In this document: positions 1,531 to 45,900 of the stretch, piece by piece | How the letters are laid out: each line of letters opens with the position of its first letter | How positions within the stretch are numbered: position 1 is the first letter of the stretch | Source: Methylosinus sp. LW4 | GTDB taxonomy: Bacteria > Pseudomonadota > Alphaproteobacteria > Rhizobiales > Beijerinckiaceae | DNA length: 64,000 nt | Assembly (NCBI RefSeq): GCF_000379125.1 | Contig: NZ_KB900626.1 | Span: 3,658,024-3,722,023, forward strand | Direction of reading: 5' to 3' | Translations under genes and position numbers: made by a program | Notes under the pieces: generated by a model | Told to the model about the DNA's origin: nothing | The model's input: only the letters and a program-made list of their open reading frames with translations | The model's database searches: none

Positions 1531-3138
1531 TCACATGCGGAACAGGCCGAAGCGAGTCGCCTCGAGCGGCGCATTGGACGCCGTGGCGAGAGAGAGAGCA
1601 AGCACGCGGCGCGTATCCGCCGGATCGATGACGCCGTCGTCCCAGAGACGCGCGCTCGCATAATAGGGATGGCCTTGCCGCTCATATTGCGCGCGGATTT
1701 GCGCATGATAGGCGTCATGGTCTGCCTGCGGCCAGTCGCGGCCTTTCGCGGCGTAGCTGTCGCCGCGCACGCGGGAGAGAACATCGGCGGCCTGTTCGCC
1801 GCCCATGACGGAGATGCGGGCGTTGGGCCAGCTCCACAGGAAGCGGGGACCATAGGCGCGGCCGCACATCGCATAATTGCCGGCGCCGAAGCTGCCGCCG
1901 ACGATAACGGTAAATTTCGGCACGGCGGCGGTCGCCACCGCCGTCACCATTTTCGCGCCATCCTTGGCGATGCCGCGCGCTTCATAGTCGCGACCGACCA
2001 TGAAGCCGGTGACATTCTGCAGAAACAGCAGAGGAATCCCGCGTTGCGCGCAGAGCTCGATGAAATGCGCGCCTTTGAGCGCGCTTTCGCCGAACAGGAC
2101 GCCATTATTCGCGAGCACGCCGATGCGATAGCCGCAAATATGGGCGAAGCCGGCGACGAGCGTCTCGCCATAGAGCTTTTTGAACTCGTCGAACTCGCTC
2201 GCGTCGACGAGCCGCGCGATCAGCTCGCGCGCGTCATATTGACGGCGACGGTCGGCGGGGATGAGACCATATATCTCCATCGGGTCATAGAGCGGCTCGC
2301 GCGCCTCGCGCTTCTGCAGCGACGGCGGCGGAGGCGCGCCGAGCGTGGCGACGATGTCGCGCGCAATGCCGAGCGCATGGCCGTCATTCTCCGCATAATG
2401 ATCGACGACGCCGGAGCTGCGCGCATGCACCGCGGCGCCGCCCAATTCTTCCGCCGTCACGACCTCGCCCGTCGCCGCGCGCACCAGCGGCGGTCCGGCG
2501 AGGAAAATCGTGCCCGTATCGCGCACGATGATCGACTCGTCCGACATGGCCGGCACATAGGCGCCGCCCGCGGTGCAAGAGCCCATGACGATGGCGATCT
2601 GCGCAATGCCTGCCGCGGACATCTGTGCTTGATTGTAGAAGATGCGGCCGAAATGATCGCGATCGGGAAACACCTCGTCCTGCCGCGGCAGATTGGCGCC
2701 GCCGCTATCGACGAGATAGAGGCAAGGCAGGCGATTCTGCGCGGCGATCTCTTGCGCGCGCAAATGCTTTTTCACGGTCAGCGGAAAATAGGCGCCGCCT
2801 TTCACGGTCGCGTCATTGGCGAGGATCAGGCAGGCGCGGCCGCAAATGCGTCCCACTCCCGCGACGACGCCGGCGCAAGGCGCCTCTCCGTCATAGAGAT
2901 CATAGGCGGCGAATTGGCCGATCTCGAGAAAGGGCGACATGGGATCGACGAGCGCGGCGATGCGTTCACGCGCTGTCATCTTGCCGCGAGCGACATGCTT
3001 CTCTCGCGCCGCCGCGCCGCCGCCTTCGGCGATGCGCGCCGCCGTGGCGCGGAGATCGGCGACGAGGCTCCGCATCGTCTGCGCATTGGCCGCGAATTGG
3101 GCGGAGGCCGTGTCCAAGCTCGTTTCGAGAACAGTCAT
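1531..3138 (-). CDS. mccB: Methylcrotonyl-CoA carboxylase, carboxyltransferase (beta) subunit
   Basis: A 535-residue acyl-CoA carboxyltransferase that moves the carboxyl group from biotin to 3-methylcrotonyl-CoA. Features: [20 protein letters not shown] near residue 105, [20 protein letters not shown] (diagnostic for the methylcrotonyl type) near 145, [17 protein letters not shown] near 185, and the C-terminal [23 protein letters not shown] at 3138 (MTVLETSLD) is preferred to a TTG two codons upstream because GAGAG lies about 9 nt before it. Second gene of the ivd-mccB-hydratase-mccA operon. Confidence 0.93.
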
Positions 3139-3192
3139 TGCCAAATTCTCTCTTGGCCAAATCTCTCGCCGCGGCGAAGCGCGCCGCGATCG

Positions 3193-4362
3193 TCACGCGG
3201 TTTCGCTATAAAGCTCGCGGCCGATCAGCATGCGCCGAATCTCGCTGGTGCCGGCGCCGATCTCATAGAGCTTGGCGTCGCGCAGCAGGCGGCCGGTCGG
3301 ATAATCATTGATATAGCCATTGCCGCCGAGGCATTGAATGGCTTCGAGCGCCATGCGCGTCGCGCTTTCCGCGGCGAAGAGAATGGCGCCGGCGGCGTCC
3401 TTGCGCGTCGTGCGGCCGCGGTCGCAGGCGCGCGCGACGGCATAGACATAGGCGCGCGCCGCATTTTGCGCCGTATACATGTCGGCGAGCTTGGCCTGCA
3501 TGATCTGGAACTCGCCGATCGGATGGCCGAACTGCTTGCGATCATGCACATAGGGAACGACGATATCCATGCAGGCGCGCATGATGCCGATCGGCCCCCC
3601 GGCGAGAACGGCGCGCTCATAATCGAGCCCGCTCATCAGCACATTCACGCCGCGCTCCGGCAGGCCCAGCACATTCTCCTCGGGAACCTCGCAATCGCTA
3701 AACAGCAATTCGCATGTGTTGGAGCCGCGCATGCCGAGCTTGTCGAGCTTTTGCGCGGGCGTGAATCCTTTGAAGCCCTTCTCTATGATAAAGGCGGTTA
3801 TGCCATGCGCGCCGGCCGCGGGTTCGGTCTTGCCATAGACGATGACGACATCGGCGTTGGGACCATTCGTCACCCACATCTTATCGCCATTCAGCACATA
3901 GCGGTCGCCGCGCTTCTCCGCGCGCATCGACATATTGACCACATCCGAGCCGGCGTCCGGCTCCGACATGGCGAGGGCGCCGATATGCTCGCCGGAAACG
4001 AGCTTGGGCAAATAGCGGCGCTTTTGCTCGCATGTTCCGTTGCGGCGTAGTTGATTGAGGCAGAGATTGGAATGCGCGCCATAGGAGAGGCCGACGGAAG
4101 CGGAAGCGCGGCTCAGCTCCTCCATAATGACGACATGCTCGAGATAGCCGAGCCCGGCGCCGCCATACTCTTCCTCGACCGTGACGCCGAGCAGGCCGAG
4201 CGCGCCCATCTTGAGCCAGAGGTCGGAAGGGAAATCGTTTTCGCGATCGATCGTCGCGGCGCGCGGCGCGATCTCTCGCGCGGCGAATGTCTCGACCTGG
4301 TCACGCAACATATCGGCGGTTTCGCCGAGCGCGAAATCGAGCGAAGGAATCCAGTGACGCAT
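3193..4362 (-). CDS. ivd: Isovaleryl-CoA dehydrogenase
   Basis: FAD flavoenzyme oxidising isovaleryl-CoA to 3-methylcrotonyl-CoA and passing electrons to ETF. The 389-residue protein starts [14 protein letters not shown]. It shows the acyl-CoA dehydrogenase signatures [13 protein letters not shown] and [20 protein letters not shown], and ends with the FAD-contacting [31 protein letters not shown] carries the Glu in the position used as catalytic base by isovaleryl-CoA dehydrogenases, unlike medium-chain enzymes. It heads the leucine operon, with 54 nt before mccB and 85 nt after the putA stop. A longer frame to 4422 exists, but its N-terminus is not family-like. Confidence 0.93.
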
Positions 4363-39317: not shown

Positions 39318-39692
39318 ATGACGGATATCGCGCGTGACATCCATGGCGTTCGCACGCTGCTCTGCTGCGCAGAGGGCGCAAAGCTCGAGACCGAGCGCGA
39401 CGCCAATGCTTTTGTGAGCGCGGCCTGGGAGCATCAGGCGAATTTGGTGGCCATACCGGTCGCCCGAATAACGGAAGATTTCTTTCGCCTCGAAACGCGC
39501 GTCGCGGGCGAAACGATCCAGAAATTCGTCAACTACAGTCTTCGATTGGCGATCATCGGGGATATATCCGCTCATACGGATCGAAGCCGATCGACGCGCG
39601 ATTTCGTCTATGAAGCGAATCGTGGGCGATCCATATGGTTCGTCGACGATATCGACGCGCTGACTCGCAAGCTCTCGGCCCTGCGTTCCTGA
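39318..39692 (+). CDS. DUF4180 family protein
   Basis: A 124-residue protein starting MTDIARDIHGVRTLLCCAEG, resembling DUF4180: an alternating beta-alpha fold with a DAN-F-SAAWEHQANLVAIPV core and a C-terminal RGRSIWFVDDIDALTRKLSA. It has somewhat lower GC than its neighbours. No function is known. It lies between the kinase and queC on the same strand, but its role with either is unclear. Confidence 0.75.
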   Translation: MTDIARDIHGVRTLLCCAEGAKLETERDANAFVSAAWEHQANLVAIPVARITEDFFRLETRVAGETIQKFVNYSLRLAIIGDISAHTDRSRSTRDFVYEANRGRSIWFVDDIDALTRKLSALRS

Positions 39693-39724
39693 CGCTCCGC
39701 TGCGGCGAACCATAGAGAGGCATC

Positions 39725-40447
39725 GTGTTGACGTCAGACTCCGCCCTCGTCCTCTTCTCCGGCGGGCAGGATTCCGCCACCTGCCTCGCTTTTGCGCTCT
39801 CGCGTTTCGCGCGCGTCGAGACGGTCGGCTTCGACTATGGCCAGCGTCATCGCGTCGAGCTCGAGCAGCGCGGCGTGCTGCGGGAGGGACTGGCGCGCAT
39901 CTCGCCGCTGTGGGCGGAGCGGCTCGGCGAGGATCACACCATATCGATCGAAGCGCTCGGCGCCATCTCCGACACGGCGTTGACGCGCGAGGCGGAGATC
40001 GCCTTCGACGCCTCCGGCCTGCCGAACACTTTCGTGCCGGGGCGCAATATTCTCTTCCTCGCCTTCGCGGCGGCGCTCGCCTATCGGCGCGGGATCGGCA
40101 GCCTCGTCGGCGGCATGTGCGAGACGGATTTTTCCGGCTATCCCGATTGCCGCGACGCGACGATCCGCGCGGTGGAGACGGCGCTGACGCTCGGCATGGA
40201 TCGTAAGCTCGAAATCCTCACGCCGCTGATGTGGATCGACAAGGCCGCGACCTGGAAGCTCGCCGAGGAGCTGGGCGGCGAGCCGCTGGTGCGGCTCATC
40301 GTCGAGGAGAGCCACACCTGCTATCTCGGCGAGCGCGGCAAGCGTTTCGACTGGGGCCATGGCTGCGGCGAATGTCCGGCCTGCCGCCTGCGCGCCGCCG
40401 GCTGGGAGAAATATCGCGCGGCTCAGCCGTCCGGCGCGCCGAGCTGA
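39725..40447 (+). CDS. queC: 7-cyano-7-deazaguanine synthase
   Basis: Makes preQ0 from 7-carboxy-7-deazaguanine with ATP and ammonia in queuosine biosynthesis. The 240 residues start at GTG. The PP-loop [19 protein letters not shown] is at 7-25; [20 protein letters not shown] near 100 and [15 protein letters not shown] near 135 follow. The zinc-binding cysteines are in [10 protein letters not shown] and [10 protein letters not shown] near 197-222. All the key residues are present. Its 3' end overlaps the convergent acetyltransferase gene by 25 nt. Other que genes are not in the window. Confidence 0.96.
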
Positions 40448-40929
40448 CGAAACATCACGAGGGCGTCGACGAAGCCCTGCGTCGGATGCCGGAAGGCGCG
40501 CGGCAGCCGGCCGACGATCTCGAAATCGAAAGAGCGCCATAGGCGAATGGCGCGGAGATTCGTCTCGACGACGAAGTTGAATTGCACGCCGCGAAAGCCG
40601 CGCTCGCGCGCATGATCCAGAGAATGCGCGCACATTGCGCGCGCGACGCCGCGACCGGCCGCTTCGACGCTGGTCATATAGCCGCAATTGCAGATATGGG
40701 CTCCGCCGCCGGCCTGATTGGCGCGCAAATAATAGGAGCCGACGATCCTCCCTTCGTCGTCTTCCGCGACGAAGGTCTCGCGATCCGCGCCCAGCCAATA
40801 GGCGAGGGCGTCGGCCTCGGTCATGTCGCGATCGAGCGCATAGGTCTCGCCGGCGCGGATGGTCGGGCCGATGACGCGCCAGATCGCCGGCGCGTCGCCG
40901 CCTCGAGCGGGGCGGATCGATCGGATCAC
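40423..40929 (-). CDS. GNAT family N-acetyltransferase
   Basis: A 168-residue acetyltransferase. The start is GTG at 40929 ([20 protein letters not shown]), overlapping the stop of the DUF1491 gene (GTGA), so the two are coupled. The acetyl-CoA binding region is [20 protein letters not shown] near residues 92-111, followed by [20 protein letters not shown], the usual beta5-alpha4 block. The substrate is unknown. A longer frame upstream is noise from the DUF1491 gene. Confidence 0.87.
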
Positions 40930-41276
40930 GCCGCTCGCGCCGCTATGTCGACGAAGCTCTTGCCCTCGCGATCCTCGATCTCGACCAGCCACAGATCTGG
41001 GTCGAAGGCGATCTCCTTGCGGACGCGCTCCTCCGCCTCCAGCGGCGTCACCCATTCGTCGGCGTGCAGACGCGCAAACAGGCGATCGACGCCCTCCGGC
41101 AAATCCACGCTCTGCGGCGCCGGCCCGAGCAGCGCCGCGCGTCCATCCAGCCTGTCGATCTTCACGAAGATCGCGCCCGCTTCCTCGGAGCCGCGGCGGC
41201 GCAGCATGGCGACGGAGCCGGCCGTCTCGGCGCGGCGGATGAGGGCGGAGACGAAAAAGTCGGATCGAAGACGCAT
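40926..41276 (-). CDS. DUF1491 family protein
   Basis: A 116-residue protein typical of the alphaproteobacterial DUF1491 family: MRLRSDFFVSALIRRAETAG, GAIFVKIDRLDGRAALLGPA, and the C-terminal KEIAFDPDLWLVEIEDREGK. No membrane segment is seen and the function is unknown. It is the first gene of a two-gene unit with the acetyltransferase, and is divergent from the fluoride-riboswitch operon. Confidence 0.88.
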   Translation of the reverse strand: MRLRSDFFVSALIRRAETAGSVAMLRRRGSEEAGAIFVKIDRLDGRAALLGPAPQSVDLPEGVDRLFARLHADEWVTPLEAEERVRKEIAFDPDLWLVEIEDREGKSFVDIAARAA

Positions 41277-41433
41277 GAATTCTTTTCAGCCATTCGAGCC
41301 CGTCCGCGCAAGCGCTTTCGGCATGGCTTCGCGCGCGCGGCCTCGCGCGCAATGCTCTGCTCCAGCTCGTTCTTGACGCTGTCTCATTGCTCAGATACCA
41401 ATTTCGCGAAGGCCGCCGCTCGCGCGTGCGGCC

Positions 41434-41486
41434 GGGGGATGGGGTCCCCCTTCAACCGCCGCAAAGGCTGATGACTCCTGCTTACG
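41434..41486 (+). promoter_or_regulatory. Fluoride riboswitch (crcB RNA motif)
   Basis: The sequence has all conserved parts of the fluoride aptamer: GGGGATGGGGTCCCC (41435-41449), AACCGCC with a GCAAA loop, and GGCTGATGACTCCTGC (41466-41481). Pairing is consistent: GGGG with CCCC, GGGGTC with GACTCC, and GCC with GGC around GCAAA. The invariant GATG and TGATGAC are present. It starts 348 nt before the SmbP-like gene and about 760 nt before crcB. Two hairpins follow, CCGACG/CGTCGG (41488-41509) and GAGCGA/TCGCTC (41513-41529), and could form the expression platform. No T-run terminator is visible, so control may act on translation or on Rho. The gene-free stretch from 41277 to this element holds nothing else recognisable. 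Confidence 0.94.
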
Positions 41487-41543
41487 TCCGACGGTCGACC
41501 GATCGTCGGAGAGAGCGATCTATTCGCTCGGCAGGGGTCCGTC

Positions 41544-41690
41544 ATGAGTCAGCGCGCCGCGGTTTCTCCGTTTCTTCCAATTCCATCCATCGAACGCGCA
41601 GCCAGCGCCGCGCTGTCGATCGAGCTTCGTCGCGCCGAGGCGCGCGCCCATGGCCGGGCGGTCACGGCCTATCGAATGAGATTCGAATGA
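41544..41690 (+). CDS. Possible 48-residue small protein directly after the fluoride riboswitch
   Basis: The ATG at 41544 has AGGGG 7 nt upstream and is the first start codon with a good ribosome site after the riboswitch. The product begins MSQRAAVSPFLPIPSIERAA and ends in a basic, helical tail (RAVTAYRMRFE). No membrane helix or known domain is seen. It could be a regulated leader peptide, a small protein, or only the spacer. The support is position and ribosome site, not homology. Confidence 0.4.
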   Translation: MSQRAAVSPFLPIPSIERAASAALSIELRRAEARAHGRAVTAYRMRFE

Positions 41691-41781
41691 CCGCGTTCAT
41701 CGGCTGCGCCGCATCGGCGCGGCCGGCGACGAAAAATCGAATCCGAAACCCCGACCGCAATGGTCGGAAGAGGAGAGTGAG

Positions 41782-42135
41782 ATGAATATTCGCACATTCG
41801 GGCTCGCCGCGAGCCTCGGCCTCGCCGCGCTTCTCGGGTCGACGCTCGCGCGCGCCGACGACCGGCTGGACCAGGCGATCTATCACGTCAATGAGGCGAT
41901 CACCCAGGGCGGCAAGCTGCATGACACCGGCCTGCTCTCCTATCACGCCGATCTCGCGCTCGAGAAAGCCGAGGGACTGCAGAAATTCAAGCCCAATCCG
42001 CATCTGGCGGAGGCGATCGTCCATATAAAGGCGGCGATAGAGGAAGGGCGCGCCAACCACGCCGAAGCGGGAACCGCGCAGGCGAAGGAAGCGCTCTCGC
42101 ATCTCGAGGAGGCGAGCAAGGAGAGCGCAAAATAA
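41782..42135 (+). CDS. SmbP-like exported small metal-binding protein
   Basis: A 117-residue precursor. Residues 1-25 are a signal peptide (FGLAASLGLAALLGSTLARA, cleavage near ARA-DD), so the mature protein is periplasmic. The mature part is helical, with spaced histidines (YHVNEAITQGGKLHDTG, LLSYHADLAL, PNPHLAEAIVHIKAAIEEGR, ANHAEAGTAQAKEALSHLEE), as in SmbP, a copper/nickel-binding four-helix bundle from Nitrosomonas. AGAGGAG precedes the ATG. It lies between the fluoride riboswitch and crcB, 62 nt before crcB on the same strand, an unexpected partner for fluoride defence. Confidence 0.82.
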   Translation: MNIRTFGLAASLGLAALLGSTLARADDRLDQAIYHVNEAITQGGKLHDTGLLSYHADLALEKAEGLQKFKPNPHLAEAIVHIKAAIEEGRANHAEAGTAQAKEALSHLEEASKESAK

Positions 42136-42197
42136 GCTTCGCGCCGCGCGAGGCCGCGGTCGGCCTCGCGCGAATCTCTGACAGGCAAAGGCTCGCG

Positions 42198-42596
42198 ATG
42201 ATCTATGTTCTCATCATGATCGGCAGCGCGATCGGCGGCGTCGCGCGTTATTGGCTCTCGGGAGCGATCTCCCGCTGCTTCGGCGAGGCCTTTCCCTGGG
42301 GCACGCTGATCGTGAATGTCTCCGGCTGCTTCGCCATCGGCTTTTTCGCGACGCTCACGGCGCCGGGGGACGGCCGTCTCTTCGTCGACACGCAGACGCG
42401 CCAATTCGTGATGATCGGCCTATGCGGGGGCTATACGACCTTCTCCTCCTTCGGCCTGCAGACGCTCAATCTGGCGCGCGGCGGCGAGGCCTTCGCCGCG
42501 CTCGCCAATATCGGCCTGTCGTTCGGGCTCTGCCTTTTCGCGGTCTGGCTCGGACATGTCGCCGCCGCTCATCTCAACGCGTTGAAAGGAGCCTGA
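42198..42596 (+). CDS. crcB: Fluoride channel/exporter CrcB (Fluc)
   Basis: A 132-residue inner-membrane protein with four hydrophobic helices, forming dual-topology dimers that let fluoride leave the cell. Signatures: IGGVARYWLSGAISRC, PWGTLIVNVSGCFAIGFF (the central Asn helix) and GLCGGYTTFSSFGLQTLNLA (the sodium-site TTFSSF break). Length is normal. It is transcribed from the riboswitch-led region and is followed after 2 nt by the DUF190 gene. Confidence 0.96.
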   Translation: MIYVLIMIGSAIGGVARYWLSGAISRCFGEAFPWGTLIVNVSGCFAIGFFATLTAPGDGRLFVDTQTRQFVMIGLCGGYTTFSSFGLQTLNLARGGEAFAALANIGLSFGLCLFAVWLGHVAAAHLNALKGA

Positions 42597-42598
42597 CG

Positions 42599-42934
42599 AT
42601 GCAATTGCCTCGAGACGCGACTCTGCTGCGCATCTTCATCGGCGAGGACGAGAAGTTCGAAGGGCGGCCGCTGCATGAGGCGATCGTGCGGACGGCGCGC
42701 GCGCTGCATCTCGCCGGCGCCACCGTGCTGCGCGGTCCTGCGGGATTCGGCCACAGCAGCCGGATGCGCACCACGAAGATTTTGAGCCTCTCGGAAGACC
42801 TTCCCATCGTCATAGAGATCGTCGACGAGGAGGAGAAGATCGACGCCTTTCTGCCGACGCTCGATGCGATGATGAGCGGCGGGCTGGTCACGCTCGAGAA
42901 AGTGCGCGTGATGCGCTATGGCGAGAAGATGTGA
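42599..42934 (+). CDS. DUF190 family protein, crcB partner
   Basis: A 111-residue cytoplasmic protein of the DUF190 type, a ferredoxin-like fold related to PII proteins. Core blocks are LLRIFIGEDEKFEGRPLHEA, GATVLRGPAGFGHSSRMRT and LPIVIEIVDEEEKIDAFLPT. It starts 2 nt after the crcB stop, so coupled translation is likely. DUF190 genes are often next to crcB, but the molecular role (possible channel regulator) is not established. It ends one nucleotide from the convergent lhr stop. Confidence 0.9.
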   Translation: MQLPRDATLLRIFIGEDEKFEGRPLHEAIVRTARALHLAGATVLRGPAGFGHSSRMRTTKILSLSEDLPIVIEIVDEEEKIDAFLPTLDAMMSGGLVTLEKVRVMRYGEKM

Positions 42935-42935
42935 C

Positions 42936-45900
42936 TCACGCCAGATCGGCGAGCTGTCCCCGCGCCGCCGAACGGATGAGGCGTTTCTCCGCCTCCCATC
43001 GCGTCGCTTCGTCGACGTTCGTCAGAAATTCGATTTTGCCGCCGGCGAGCGCGGCTATGGGGAGGCCGTCGCGATAGAGCAGGCGATTGCCGGTGAGCGC
43101 GGCGAGCTTCCCGCCCGGAGTCAGCACGCCGATGAGATTGAGCGGATCGGCCGCCGACAGCGACACATATCGCCCATCGGCGGGCCGGCGGCGAATCTCG
43201 CGCAGCAGGCCGACGGCGTCCGGCAGCGCATATTGCTCGCCGGAAAAGCCGGCGACGAAACGCCCGCCGCGAATTTCGCCGCGCGCCTCGAGCCGCCGAT
43301 AGACGCGCAGGAGATCGCGCCAGGGCGGCAGCCAGCCGCCTTCGCGCGCCAAAAGGCGCCAGAAGACGACGCCATAGCGGCGCAGCAGCGCCTGCGCGAT
43401 GTGCTCCACGCAAGCGTGACGCGCCTGTGAGCCCGGCGCCGCATAGGCGCGGCGAATGAGGGACCAGCGCCCGGCGCTCTCCATGCCGAAGGAGAGCACT
43501 TTGCCGCGCCGCCGCGCGCCGTCGAAAGGCTTGCGCTTCTCGGAAGGCACGAGCAGCGCGCGCAGCCCGCCGAAACTGTCCGAGGTGACGAGGCCGAGCG
43601 CGGCCAGCTCGCCCAGCGCCGTCTCCAGCTCGGAGCGCAGCAGGCGCGAGGCGTCGACCAGCTCCTCGAAGAACAGCGCCCCCTCGGCGCGCAGCGTCTC
43701 GAGCGCCAATTGCGCGCGGCCGCTCAGCGCCGGCGGCTCGGCGGGCGTCGCGATCGAGGTCCAATCGGCCAGCCTTCGCCGCTCCAAGAGAGCGATCGGC
43801 GAGCTTTTGATCGGCGAGACCATGCGGGCGCCCTTGGCGGCGGCGGGCGGCGTCAACCGCGCCCAGGCGATGCGGCCGGAGAGGCAGAGCGAATCGAGAT
43901 ATCCGGTCTCGTAATCGGAGAGGCGCGCGGGGAGGATTTCCGTCTCCCAGGCGCCCGCCGGCGCTTCATATCCCTCGAGGCCCGAGAGAGCGGCGGTCAG
44001 CGCCTCCGGCCCTTTCAGCCGCGCCTCCTCGGCGACATGCTGCCAATCGAAGAGGAAGCGCAGGAAGTCGCGCGCCGCAACGGGCTCGATCTCGGCGCGC
44101 AGGCGCTTGATCGTGTAATGGTGGATGCGCGCCAGCAGGCGGCGGTCGCACCATTGCTCGTCATTGGCGCCGGGCAGGAAACGCCCGCGCATGATCGTGC
44201 CTTCCGCTTCCAGCGCGACCAGCGCGGTCGTCAGACTCGTAGGCTCGAGGCCGAGCGCCGCGGCGAGCCCCGTCTGCGTGACCGGACCCAGCCCCTCGAG
44301 CCGACCGCGCAAGATTTCGATCAGCGCCTGCTCGGCCGACCACAGCGCCGGCGCCTCGCTCTCGGGCGGCGAAATTTTCGGCGCCAGCCGCGCCTTGGGC
44401 CAGAGCGCGTGAAATTGCGTCAGCCGCTCCGCCGCGACCCAGAAGCTCGCCGCCCCGGTCTCGAAACGCGTCGCGCGCTTTTGGCGAGCCAGCGCCTCGA
44501 GCCATGCGGCCCAGTCCGGCGCGGCGGCGACCTCCGCCTCGGTGAGGCAACCGATCCAAAGCAGCGCGTCATGCAGTTCCTCCGGGTCGATCGGCTCGGG
44601 CCAGGCCTCGGACTTCACGCGCTCGATCGCCTCCGCGTCCAGCCGGCCGAGATCGGAGGCGCTCTGCGGGTCCTGCCAGCGTCGCGCCATCACCGCCTGC
44701 GCGCGGCGCTCCTCGAGGGGGGCGTCGTCGAGGAAAGCGTAAGGCCGCGCGGAGAGCACCTCCAGCGCCAGCGGCGAAGGCTGGGTGAGATCGCAGGCGA
44801 CGACGCGCACCTCGCCCGACTCCATGCGCCGCAGCAGCCGCTCCAGCCCGTCAATATCCATCGCCTCGTGCAGACAGTCCCAAATGGTCTGGTTGGTCAG
44901 CGGATGGTCGGGAACCTCGCGCTCGCCGGCGAGATTTTCGGCGCAGGCGATCTGATCGGGAAAGACGGCGGCGACCAAATCCTCCGCCTGCATGCGTAGA
45001 AATTGCGGCGGCGTCTTCTTGCCGCCCTGGAAGCGCGGCAGAGCGAGCGAGATTCCCGCCGTCCAGCGCCAGCGCGTCATGAACATGGGCGCGGTCAGCA
45101 TCGCCTGCACCAGCACGCCGCGCACGCTGTTGGAATGAAGATATTTCGCCACCTCGGCGAGCTCGAAACTATGCGCCGTGGTGAGCGAGAGCAGTATGTT
45201 GTCTTCCGTCGCCGCCGCCTGAAGCTCGAAGTTGAACTTGCGGCAAAAGCGCTTGCGCAATGCGAGGCCGAAGGCGCGATTGATGCGCCCGCCGAAGGGC
45301 GAATGCACGACGAGCTGCATTCCGCCCGCCTCGTCGAAAAAGCGTTCCAGCACGAGGCAATCCTGCGTCGGCAGCACGCCGCCGAAGGCGCCGAGCGCTC
45401 CGGCGAGATAGTCGACCAGCTGCTCCGCGGCGGGCGGCGCGACGCCGACCTCCTCCATCAGCCAGCGTTGCGCCTCGCCGCCGCCGGGGTCTCGGCGCAG
45501 ACGCTCGGCGATCTCGCCGCGTAGGCGCGAGACGGAGAGGGACAGCTCGTCCGCGCGCGCCGGCGCCTCGCCGAGCCAGAAGGGAATGGTCGGCGGCTGG
45601 CCCTGCGCATCCTCGACGCGCAAGGTCCCGCGCTCGACGCGCTGCACGCGATAGGAGGCGTTGCCGAGCTGGAAAATGTCGCCGGCCATGCTCTCCACGG
45701 CGAAATCCTCATGCACCGTGCCGACAATGTGATTCTCCGGCTCCAGCAGCACTTGATAATCGGCGGTCTCGGGGATGGCGCCGCCGGAGGTGAGCGCCGT
45801 CATGCGTGCGCCGCGCCGCTCGCGCAGAATGTGATTCACCGCATCATGATGCAGCAGCGCGCCGCGCCTGCCGCGCCGCGTCGCATAGCCCTCGGCGAGC

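Follow-up and report, generated by a model that had tools for sequence, protein, structure and literature searches.

A putative fluoride-defence cassette of Methylosinus sp. LW4 in which a riboswitch precedes a probable gene remnant, an SmbP-like gene, crcB and DUF190

Methylosinus sp. LW4 carries a fluoride riboswitch followed on the forward strand by a 48-codon ORF, smbP, crcB and a DUF190 gene, with 91, 62 and 2 bases between successive ORFs, and we think it probable that this block is a self-contained fluoride-defence cassette in which a translational ON switch acts through a remnant leader ahead of the SmbP, CrcB and DUF190 genes. The block lies in a 64,000-nucleotide stretch of contig NZ_KB900626.1 (the window), which is part of a 4.8-Mb genome (G000). 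The aptamer, the gene families, the complementarity of the switch strands, the DNA similarity of the remnant and the cassette boundaries against one relative are the parts supported by sequence. The probable gene remnant, the predicted translational gate and a membrane-protein family linked to the switch are the new points; the fluoride-riboswitch operon itself is known.

Features of the fluoride cassette (positions in the window)
Feature	Position	Strand	Remark
Whole fluoride cassette	41321..42934	+	block missing from the same site in G149
Putative promoter, TTGACG-N17-TACCAATT	41373..41403	+	box common to genus leaders
Fluoride riboswitch aptamer	41426..41487	+	RF01734, 56.8 bits
Expression platform: two hairpins, then SD GCAGGGGU	41488..41543	+	SD paired to aptamer ACUCCUGC in the fold predicted without ligand
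48-codon ORF, probable remnant of a 148-aa first gene	41544..41690	+	resembles L099/L118 and L100/L119 in DNA over the stop codon
Small hairpin CCGACC/GGTCGG before the smbP SD	41751..41767	+	stem differs in L118/L119, pairing kept (by eye)
smbP-like gene, small metal-binding protein family	41782..42135	+	PF16785, signal-like N-terminus
Strong GC hairpin just 3′ of the smbP stop	42145..42172	+	different sequence in L118/L119
crcB, Fluc fluoride exporter family	42198..42596	+	PF02537, E 1.2e-27
DUF190 (COG1993) protein	42599..42934	+	PF02641, E 5.1e-40

The preliminary description had recognised a crcB RNA at this site, and a covariance search with RF01734 (Fluoride) bears this out: the match is full length (model positions 1-64), scores 56.8 bits against a gathering threshold of 34 (E 4.3e-13), and is the sole Rfam match at gathering thresholds within the window. 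The earlier start of the aptamer, at 41434, falls 8 bases inside this match and is moved accordingly. By the covariance model the element is a bona fide fluoride aptamer, and its fluoride-dependent folding is predicted. TTGACG is found 53-62 bases 5′ of the aptamer, with a TA-box 17 bases further, and the pair suggests a shared promoter because it recurs in 13/13 genus leaders examined for the box, the genus having 18 fluoride-riboswitch matches overall.

Folding of the expression platform is predicted to join the aptamer 3′ strand ACUCCUGC to the tiny-ORF SD, GCAGGGGU, with two hairpins between them (z -3.86; z -4.54). At least seven contiguous anti-SD:SD pairs are formed in 15/15 leaders versus 2/53 window ORFs, the latter being a control in which one fixed 10-mer was set against ORFs chosen by length and codon GC, some of whose starts may be wrong. 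The 15 leaders, which are mutually related and so not independent, comprise the window, 12 of 20 fetched loci, L124 and L024, namely those followed by the 148-aa membrane-protein family described below or its remnant; leaders with other first genes (L102, L106 and L112-L117) were left out. Pairing was counted directly in each leader, as the MAFFT alignment (A5) misplaces the SD of L109. Changes on both sides that keep the pairing are observed in L109 (CTCCTGT/ACAGGAG) and L024 (CTCCTAC/GTAGGAG), and RNAalifold recovers the SD helix and finds covariation in the first platform hairpin. Single-sequence folding covered seven of the 15 leaders, and in six of these the best fold contains the SD helix; the best fold of L109 is without it, and the fold energy of L024 is no better than that of shuffles (z -0.24). 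ACUCC is presumably the 3′ strand of the aptamer pseudoknot, and barring it from the competing helix in the model lifts the probability that the SD core AGGGG is unpaired from 0.00-0.02 to 0.32-0.76. The accessible text of one study describes fluoride as docking and locking the aptamer pseudoknot (PMC8752731). The switch looks to be of the translational ON type, its predicted ligand-free fold hiding the SD of the first ORF with the ligand-binding aptamer strand. By sequence, it would act on the ribosome-binding site of the tiny ORF and not directly on smbP, which amends the interpretation given earlier, whereas other elements of it, namely the aptamer, crcB/DUF190 and an SMBP with a signal-like N-terminus (by eye), are retained. 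The arrangement also recurs in other genomes.

The short ORF (48 codons in the window and 49 in G078, a second genome of the genus) occupies the place of the 148-aa gene behind the same SD and at the same start position. A stretch of 42-52 bases, which takes in the last 37-41 bases of the ORF, its stop codon and the next 4-12 bases, aligns with the final part of the 148-aa gene, and the DNA-match scores of 44, 38, 47 and 46, from four comparisons that are not independent of each other, were each reached by 0/500 block shuffles. Protein-level similarity to the 148-aa gene is weak (1/500 shuffles for G000 and 23/500 for G078), and the remnant reading therefore rests on the DNA comparison. The ORF has no match in Pfam or NCBIfam, and its 48-aa product contains neither Cys nor a long hydrophobic stretch, departing from the two stretches and four Cys of the family alignment (A3). 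By DNA similarity it is most likely a remnant and no working member of the 148-aa family. Between G000 and G078, substitutions number 1/62 bases in the aptamer, 5/56 in the platform, 23/147 in the ORF and 6/91 in the gap to smbP, the aptamer and the whole ORF differing in rate with a Fisher p of 0.002; with the aptamer conserved and the first ORF drifting, the riboswitch would be expected to act for the downstream genes. The remnant leader suggests a way in which a translational riboswitch can outlast its first gene. Overlapping ATGA ORFs (41690/41687 and 41785/41782) were considered as a coupling relay and set aside; they are open in the window but not separate in G078.

The tiny ORF and an SmbP-like gene had been placed before crcB by the preliminary description, and both stand, though its term "His-rich" fits only mildly. 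The smbP product matches SMBP (PF16785) at 62.7 bits versus a cut-off of 29 (E 4.5e-17), and with a four-member profile (A2) its sole PDB match up to E 1 is 3u8v, "Metal-binding protein smbP" (E 4.1e-7). It has seven His, all within the 92 residues that follow the signal-like stretch and all invariant across the four operon copies; 34 other SMBP sequences examined range from 3 to 16, 21 of them having at least 8 His and 13 having 7 or fewer. The signal-like N-terminus is common to the operon SMBPs (by eye), and we infer that SmbP is most likely a periplasmic buffer of metal or metal-fluoride. The gene starts 91 bases 3′ of the remnant stop and has its own SD, and direct translational coupling to smbP is doubtful because of these two features.

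Behind smbP, the presence of crcB and DUF190 on the same strand as the aptamer, noted earlier, is confirmed by matches of CrcB to PF02537 (96.7 bits versus 32.9) and NF010802 (188.8 bits versus a cut-off of 140) and of DUF190 to PF02641 (136.1 bits versus a cut-off of 23.4), the latter protein also matching PDB 2dcl and 1o51 (E 2e-23). Values of dN/dS between G000 and G078 of 0.20 for smbP, 0.11 for crcB and 0.12 for DUF190 point to constraint on all three proteins. The hairpin after smbP is found in 4/4 operons, with z values of -2.66 in the window, -3.99 in L098, -4.64 in L118 and -2.81 in L119 (5, 0, 0 and 2 of 200 shuffles, respectively, fold as well), and its sequence in the copies of G150 is unrelated. 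A scan found no T-run at the window hairpin, and for this reason it may be an mRNA-stabilising or leaky 3′ element, such that smbP and crcB levels may differ.

The proposed mechanism would proceed as follows. Without fluoride, ACUCCUGC of the aptamer would pair with the SD GCAGGGGU and hide the start of the first ORF; with fluoride, ACUCC would be locked into the aptamer pseudoknot and the SD freed. The first ORF would be a former 148-aa membrane-protein gene, intact in sister operons, that has shrunk to a 48-codon leader serving mainly as a ribosome landing site. Translation of this leader would keep the transcript alive into smbP, crcB and DUF190, most likely by preventing Rho-type polarity. 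CrcB would export fluoride, DUF190 would be an accessory protein and SmbP a binder of metal (or metal-fluoride) in the periplasm, and the hairpin after smbP would probably stabilise or partly end the message, leaving SmbP in excess of CrcB. The fluoride response, the polarity, the roles of the hairpin and of DUF190, and the location and ligand of SmbP form the conjectural part of this scheme.

An arrangement in which smbP is expressed from a promoter of its own and responds to metals, with only the tiny ORF (or nothing) under fluoride control, is unlikely in our judgement. It would account for the separate SD of smbP and for the conserved 91-base gap (6 substitutions in 91), in which the small hairpin pairs in 4/4 operons (by eye), and it would fit the location of most SMBP genes away from any switch. 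However, a consensus scan of 41200-43000 found no sigma-70-like promoter (a weak test, since the scan also misses the TTGACG-N17-TAt of genus leaders), the sequence upstream differs in twelve other smbP genes (by eye), and the aptamer is kept (1/62) beside a drifting first ORF (23/147). Action of the switch at transcription through a terminator and antiterminator has a well-studied precedent in the transcriptional crcB switch of Bacillus cereus, as given in the accessible text of PMC8752731. The scan detected no T-run hairpin in the interval from the aptamer to the first ORF, so a terminator reading of the platform was set aside, and in 15/15 leaders examined the SD has the platform strand as its pairing partner; we regard a transcriptional switch as highly improbable here.

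It is also quite unlikely that the 48-codon ORF, or a frame overlapping it, encodes a functional leader peptide or small protein and is no remnant. Its own frame has a dN/dS of 1.02-1.16 depending on gap placement, and amino-acid changes are close to the neutral expectation (14 versus 14.9 expected; 13 versus 14.0 in a second test, P 0.38). The ORF is open in both genomes, with a sole indel of three bases; about 26% of simulations leave it open by chance. Conservation is seen in its 3′ part (4 substitutions in 50, a split chosen after viewing the alignment). In DNA, the end of the ORF matches the end of the larger gene, across the stop codon. GC by codon position (0.69/0.60/0.65 and 0.59/0.68/0.66 in the two frames, compared with 0.71/0.42/0.79 in smbP) is gene-like in neither. 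The +2 frame, which spans 41546-41785 and ends over the smbP start, has a dN/dS of 0.34, and over 41544-41769 shows 11/73 codons changed where 17.0 would be expected if changes were placed neutrally (P 0.008, this being one of three frames tested), a hint of constraint that leaves room for some coding use; in G078 this frame meets an early stop when read from the aptamer ATG, and beyond it runs in frame into smbP.

Returning to the cassette with a translational gate and a remnant leader, its limits are defined by comparison with G149, a close relative, in which locus positions 1-1892 correspond to window 39430-41320 (97.8%) and positions 1902-3342 to window 42935-44375 (95.8%). Nine other bases replace the 1.6-kb block there, and DUF1491 and helicase genes adjoin. 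The block missing in G149 extends from about 50 bases 5′ of the promoter-like box to the DUF190 stop, and against this one relative the cassette is a discrete block. The comparison is compatible both with gain in G000 and G078 and with loss in G149; the loci taken from the remaining seven genus genomes had no helicase gene within reach.

The combination of riboswitch, SMBP and CrcB recurs at four loci in 3/10 genus genomes: once each in G000 and G078, and twice in G150, a MAG. One G150 operon (L099/L118) has the order riboswitch, 148-aa gene, smbP, crcB, DUF190, and the other (L100/L119) has the same order plus an extra gene (191-220 aa by start choice) before crcB. Fluoride riboswitches over the cut-off are present in 10/10 genus genomes and, in the family sample, in 33 of the 37 genomes with a match (of 149). 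SMBP is likewise found in 10/10 genus genomes; its places number 21, with 19 over the cut-off, and 4 of the 21 are linked to the switch; in the family sample 2/37 SMBP places are so linked, and in the phylum sample 4/398 genomes have SMBP, distances for these linkage counts having been read from match tables. A profile of the operon-type SMBP run against genome contigs found six loci, all in Methylosinus or Methylocystaceae, with a fluoride switch only at L118 and L119. As far as seen, the linkage of SMBP to the fluoride switch is real but lineage-restricted.

In 9/10 genus genomes, a fluoride riboswitch heads two uncharacterised genes in tandem, whose products (about 148 and 149 aa) are 42% identical to each other. 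Four Cys are invariant across the 18 family members aligned (A3), and two hydrophobic stretches are found in the one 148-aa member with computed hydropathy. The pair had no significant match in Pfam, PHROGs or the PDB, and NCBIfam gave matches only far under the cut-off. The family profile finds members in 12/149 genomes of this bacterial family, belonging to three genera and being the same 12 that hold SMBP, and in 2/397 genomes of the order, both from this bacterial family. Members stand directly behind fluoride riboswitches, in most cases as the tandem pair, at L101, L103-L105 and L107-L111 in genus g1, at L024 in genus g41 and at L124. In 16 loci (14 from genus g18, which we take to be Methylocystis, and 2 from G105), no Rfam fluoride match over threshold was found within 1.5 kb of a member. 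At L111, in the same genome as the window, ChrA was considered as the switch target and rejected; the ChrA-family gene (PF02417) lies in divergent orientation, and it is the 148-aa pair that the switch reads into.

G105 is the exception in the genus. Its intact switch precedes an MFS-like gene (MFS_1 at 29.3 bits on a 120-aa fragment, cut-off 33.4), and at L142:1030-1430 the aptamer and the first (148-aa) gene appear to have decayed before an intact 149-aa-type gene (by eye), a site at which Rfam gives no fluoride match at E up to 10. In the window, unlike in G105, the switch has survived the loss of the first gene, an argument for its serving the downstream genes. Fluoride riboswitches also head MFS-like genes at L106, L113, L114, L115 and L117 (only the L106 fragment was checked by Pfam, and it scored under the cut-off), and at some of these loci the next genes resemble an outer-membrane factor or a membrane-fusion protein (by eye).

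Related systems differ in what stands before crcB. When 41200-43000 was searched against plasmid DNA, 10 records matched, over crcB/DUF190, and none covered 80% of the query. Like the window, the Mesorhizobium loti plasmid CP050294 (L169) and Gluconobacter oxydans pGOX1 (L170) have an aptamer above gathering and crcB on the same strand, but with crcB 73 and 80 bases after the aptamer, where the window has the remnant ORF and smbP; a Cereibacter plasmid (L168) has crcB-crcB-DUF190 with no riboswitch over threshold. Plasmid NZ_CP107560 of Methylocystis sp. MJC1 (L124) has CrcB-DUF190, a 148-aa family member behind a fluoride riboswitch, and three fluoride riboswitches in 12.4 kb; it differs from the window in that its 148-aa gene has its own switch and lies outside the crcB operon, and no SMBP match was found in this plasmid at E 1e-5. 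The L124 fluoride island also holds genes for a cation antiporter, a universal stress protein, a HEAT-repeat protein and an enolase.

The SmbP of Nitrosomonas europaea, which we take to be the source of 3u8v, belongs to the same Pfam family (PF16785) as the window protein and presumably has more histidines; unlike it, the window SmbP stands behind a fluoride riboswitch. According to the accessible text of PMC5533749, Enterobacter cloacae FRM has a fluoride-resistance operon, ppaC-uspA-eno-gpmA-crcB-orf5249, under one fluoride riboswitch and expressed as two mRNAs, short and long. The window cassette resembles it as a predicted multigene operon behind one fluoride riboswitch with crcB placed late. 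The two differ in gene set and size, and the genes before crcB in E. cloacae FRM, so far as that text describes them, are mainly for enzymes and a stress protein, whereas the window has a gene for a probably exported metal binder. The accessible text of PMC11139923 names exporters, Na+/H+ antiporters, pyrophosphatase, enolase, haloacid-dehalogenase-fold enzymes and formate hydrogen lyase behind fluoride riboswitches, and no exported metal binder is among the genes named there. Searches of a library of open-access papers returned no paper joining "fluoride riboswitch" with SmbP, methanotroph or DUF190, and none joining fluoride, methanotroph and crcB.

A broader proposal, which we hold tentatively and consider doubtful, is that methanotroph fluoride defence has an undescribed envelope arm, formed by exported SmbP and the two-helix, four-Cys membrane family beside CrcB, and that the start of the lost first gene has been retained to give ribosomes a fluoride-gated landing site ahead of the downstream genes. 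Fluoride defence here may thus have a part outside the inner membrane, and an exported metal binder and a new membrane family in one regulon would make fluoride handling there testable, perhaps as metal-fluoride complexes.

Two other arrangements of fluoride riboswitches were observed. On pGOX1 (L170:1904-2207), a universal stress protein gene and crcB are each preceded by a fluoride riboswitch, the two being divergent and separated by about 180 bases, and in G013, a genome of the same family as the window, 13 fluoride-riboswitch matches form two clusters (C1:2591204-2629935 and 4428773-4442417).
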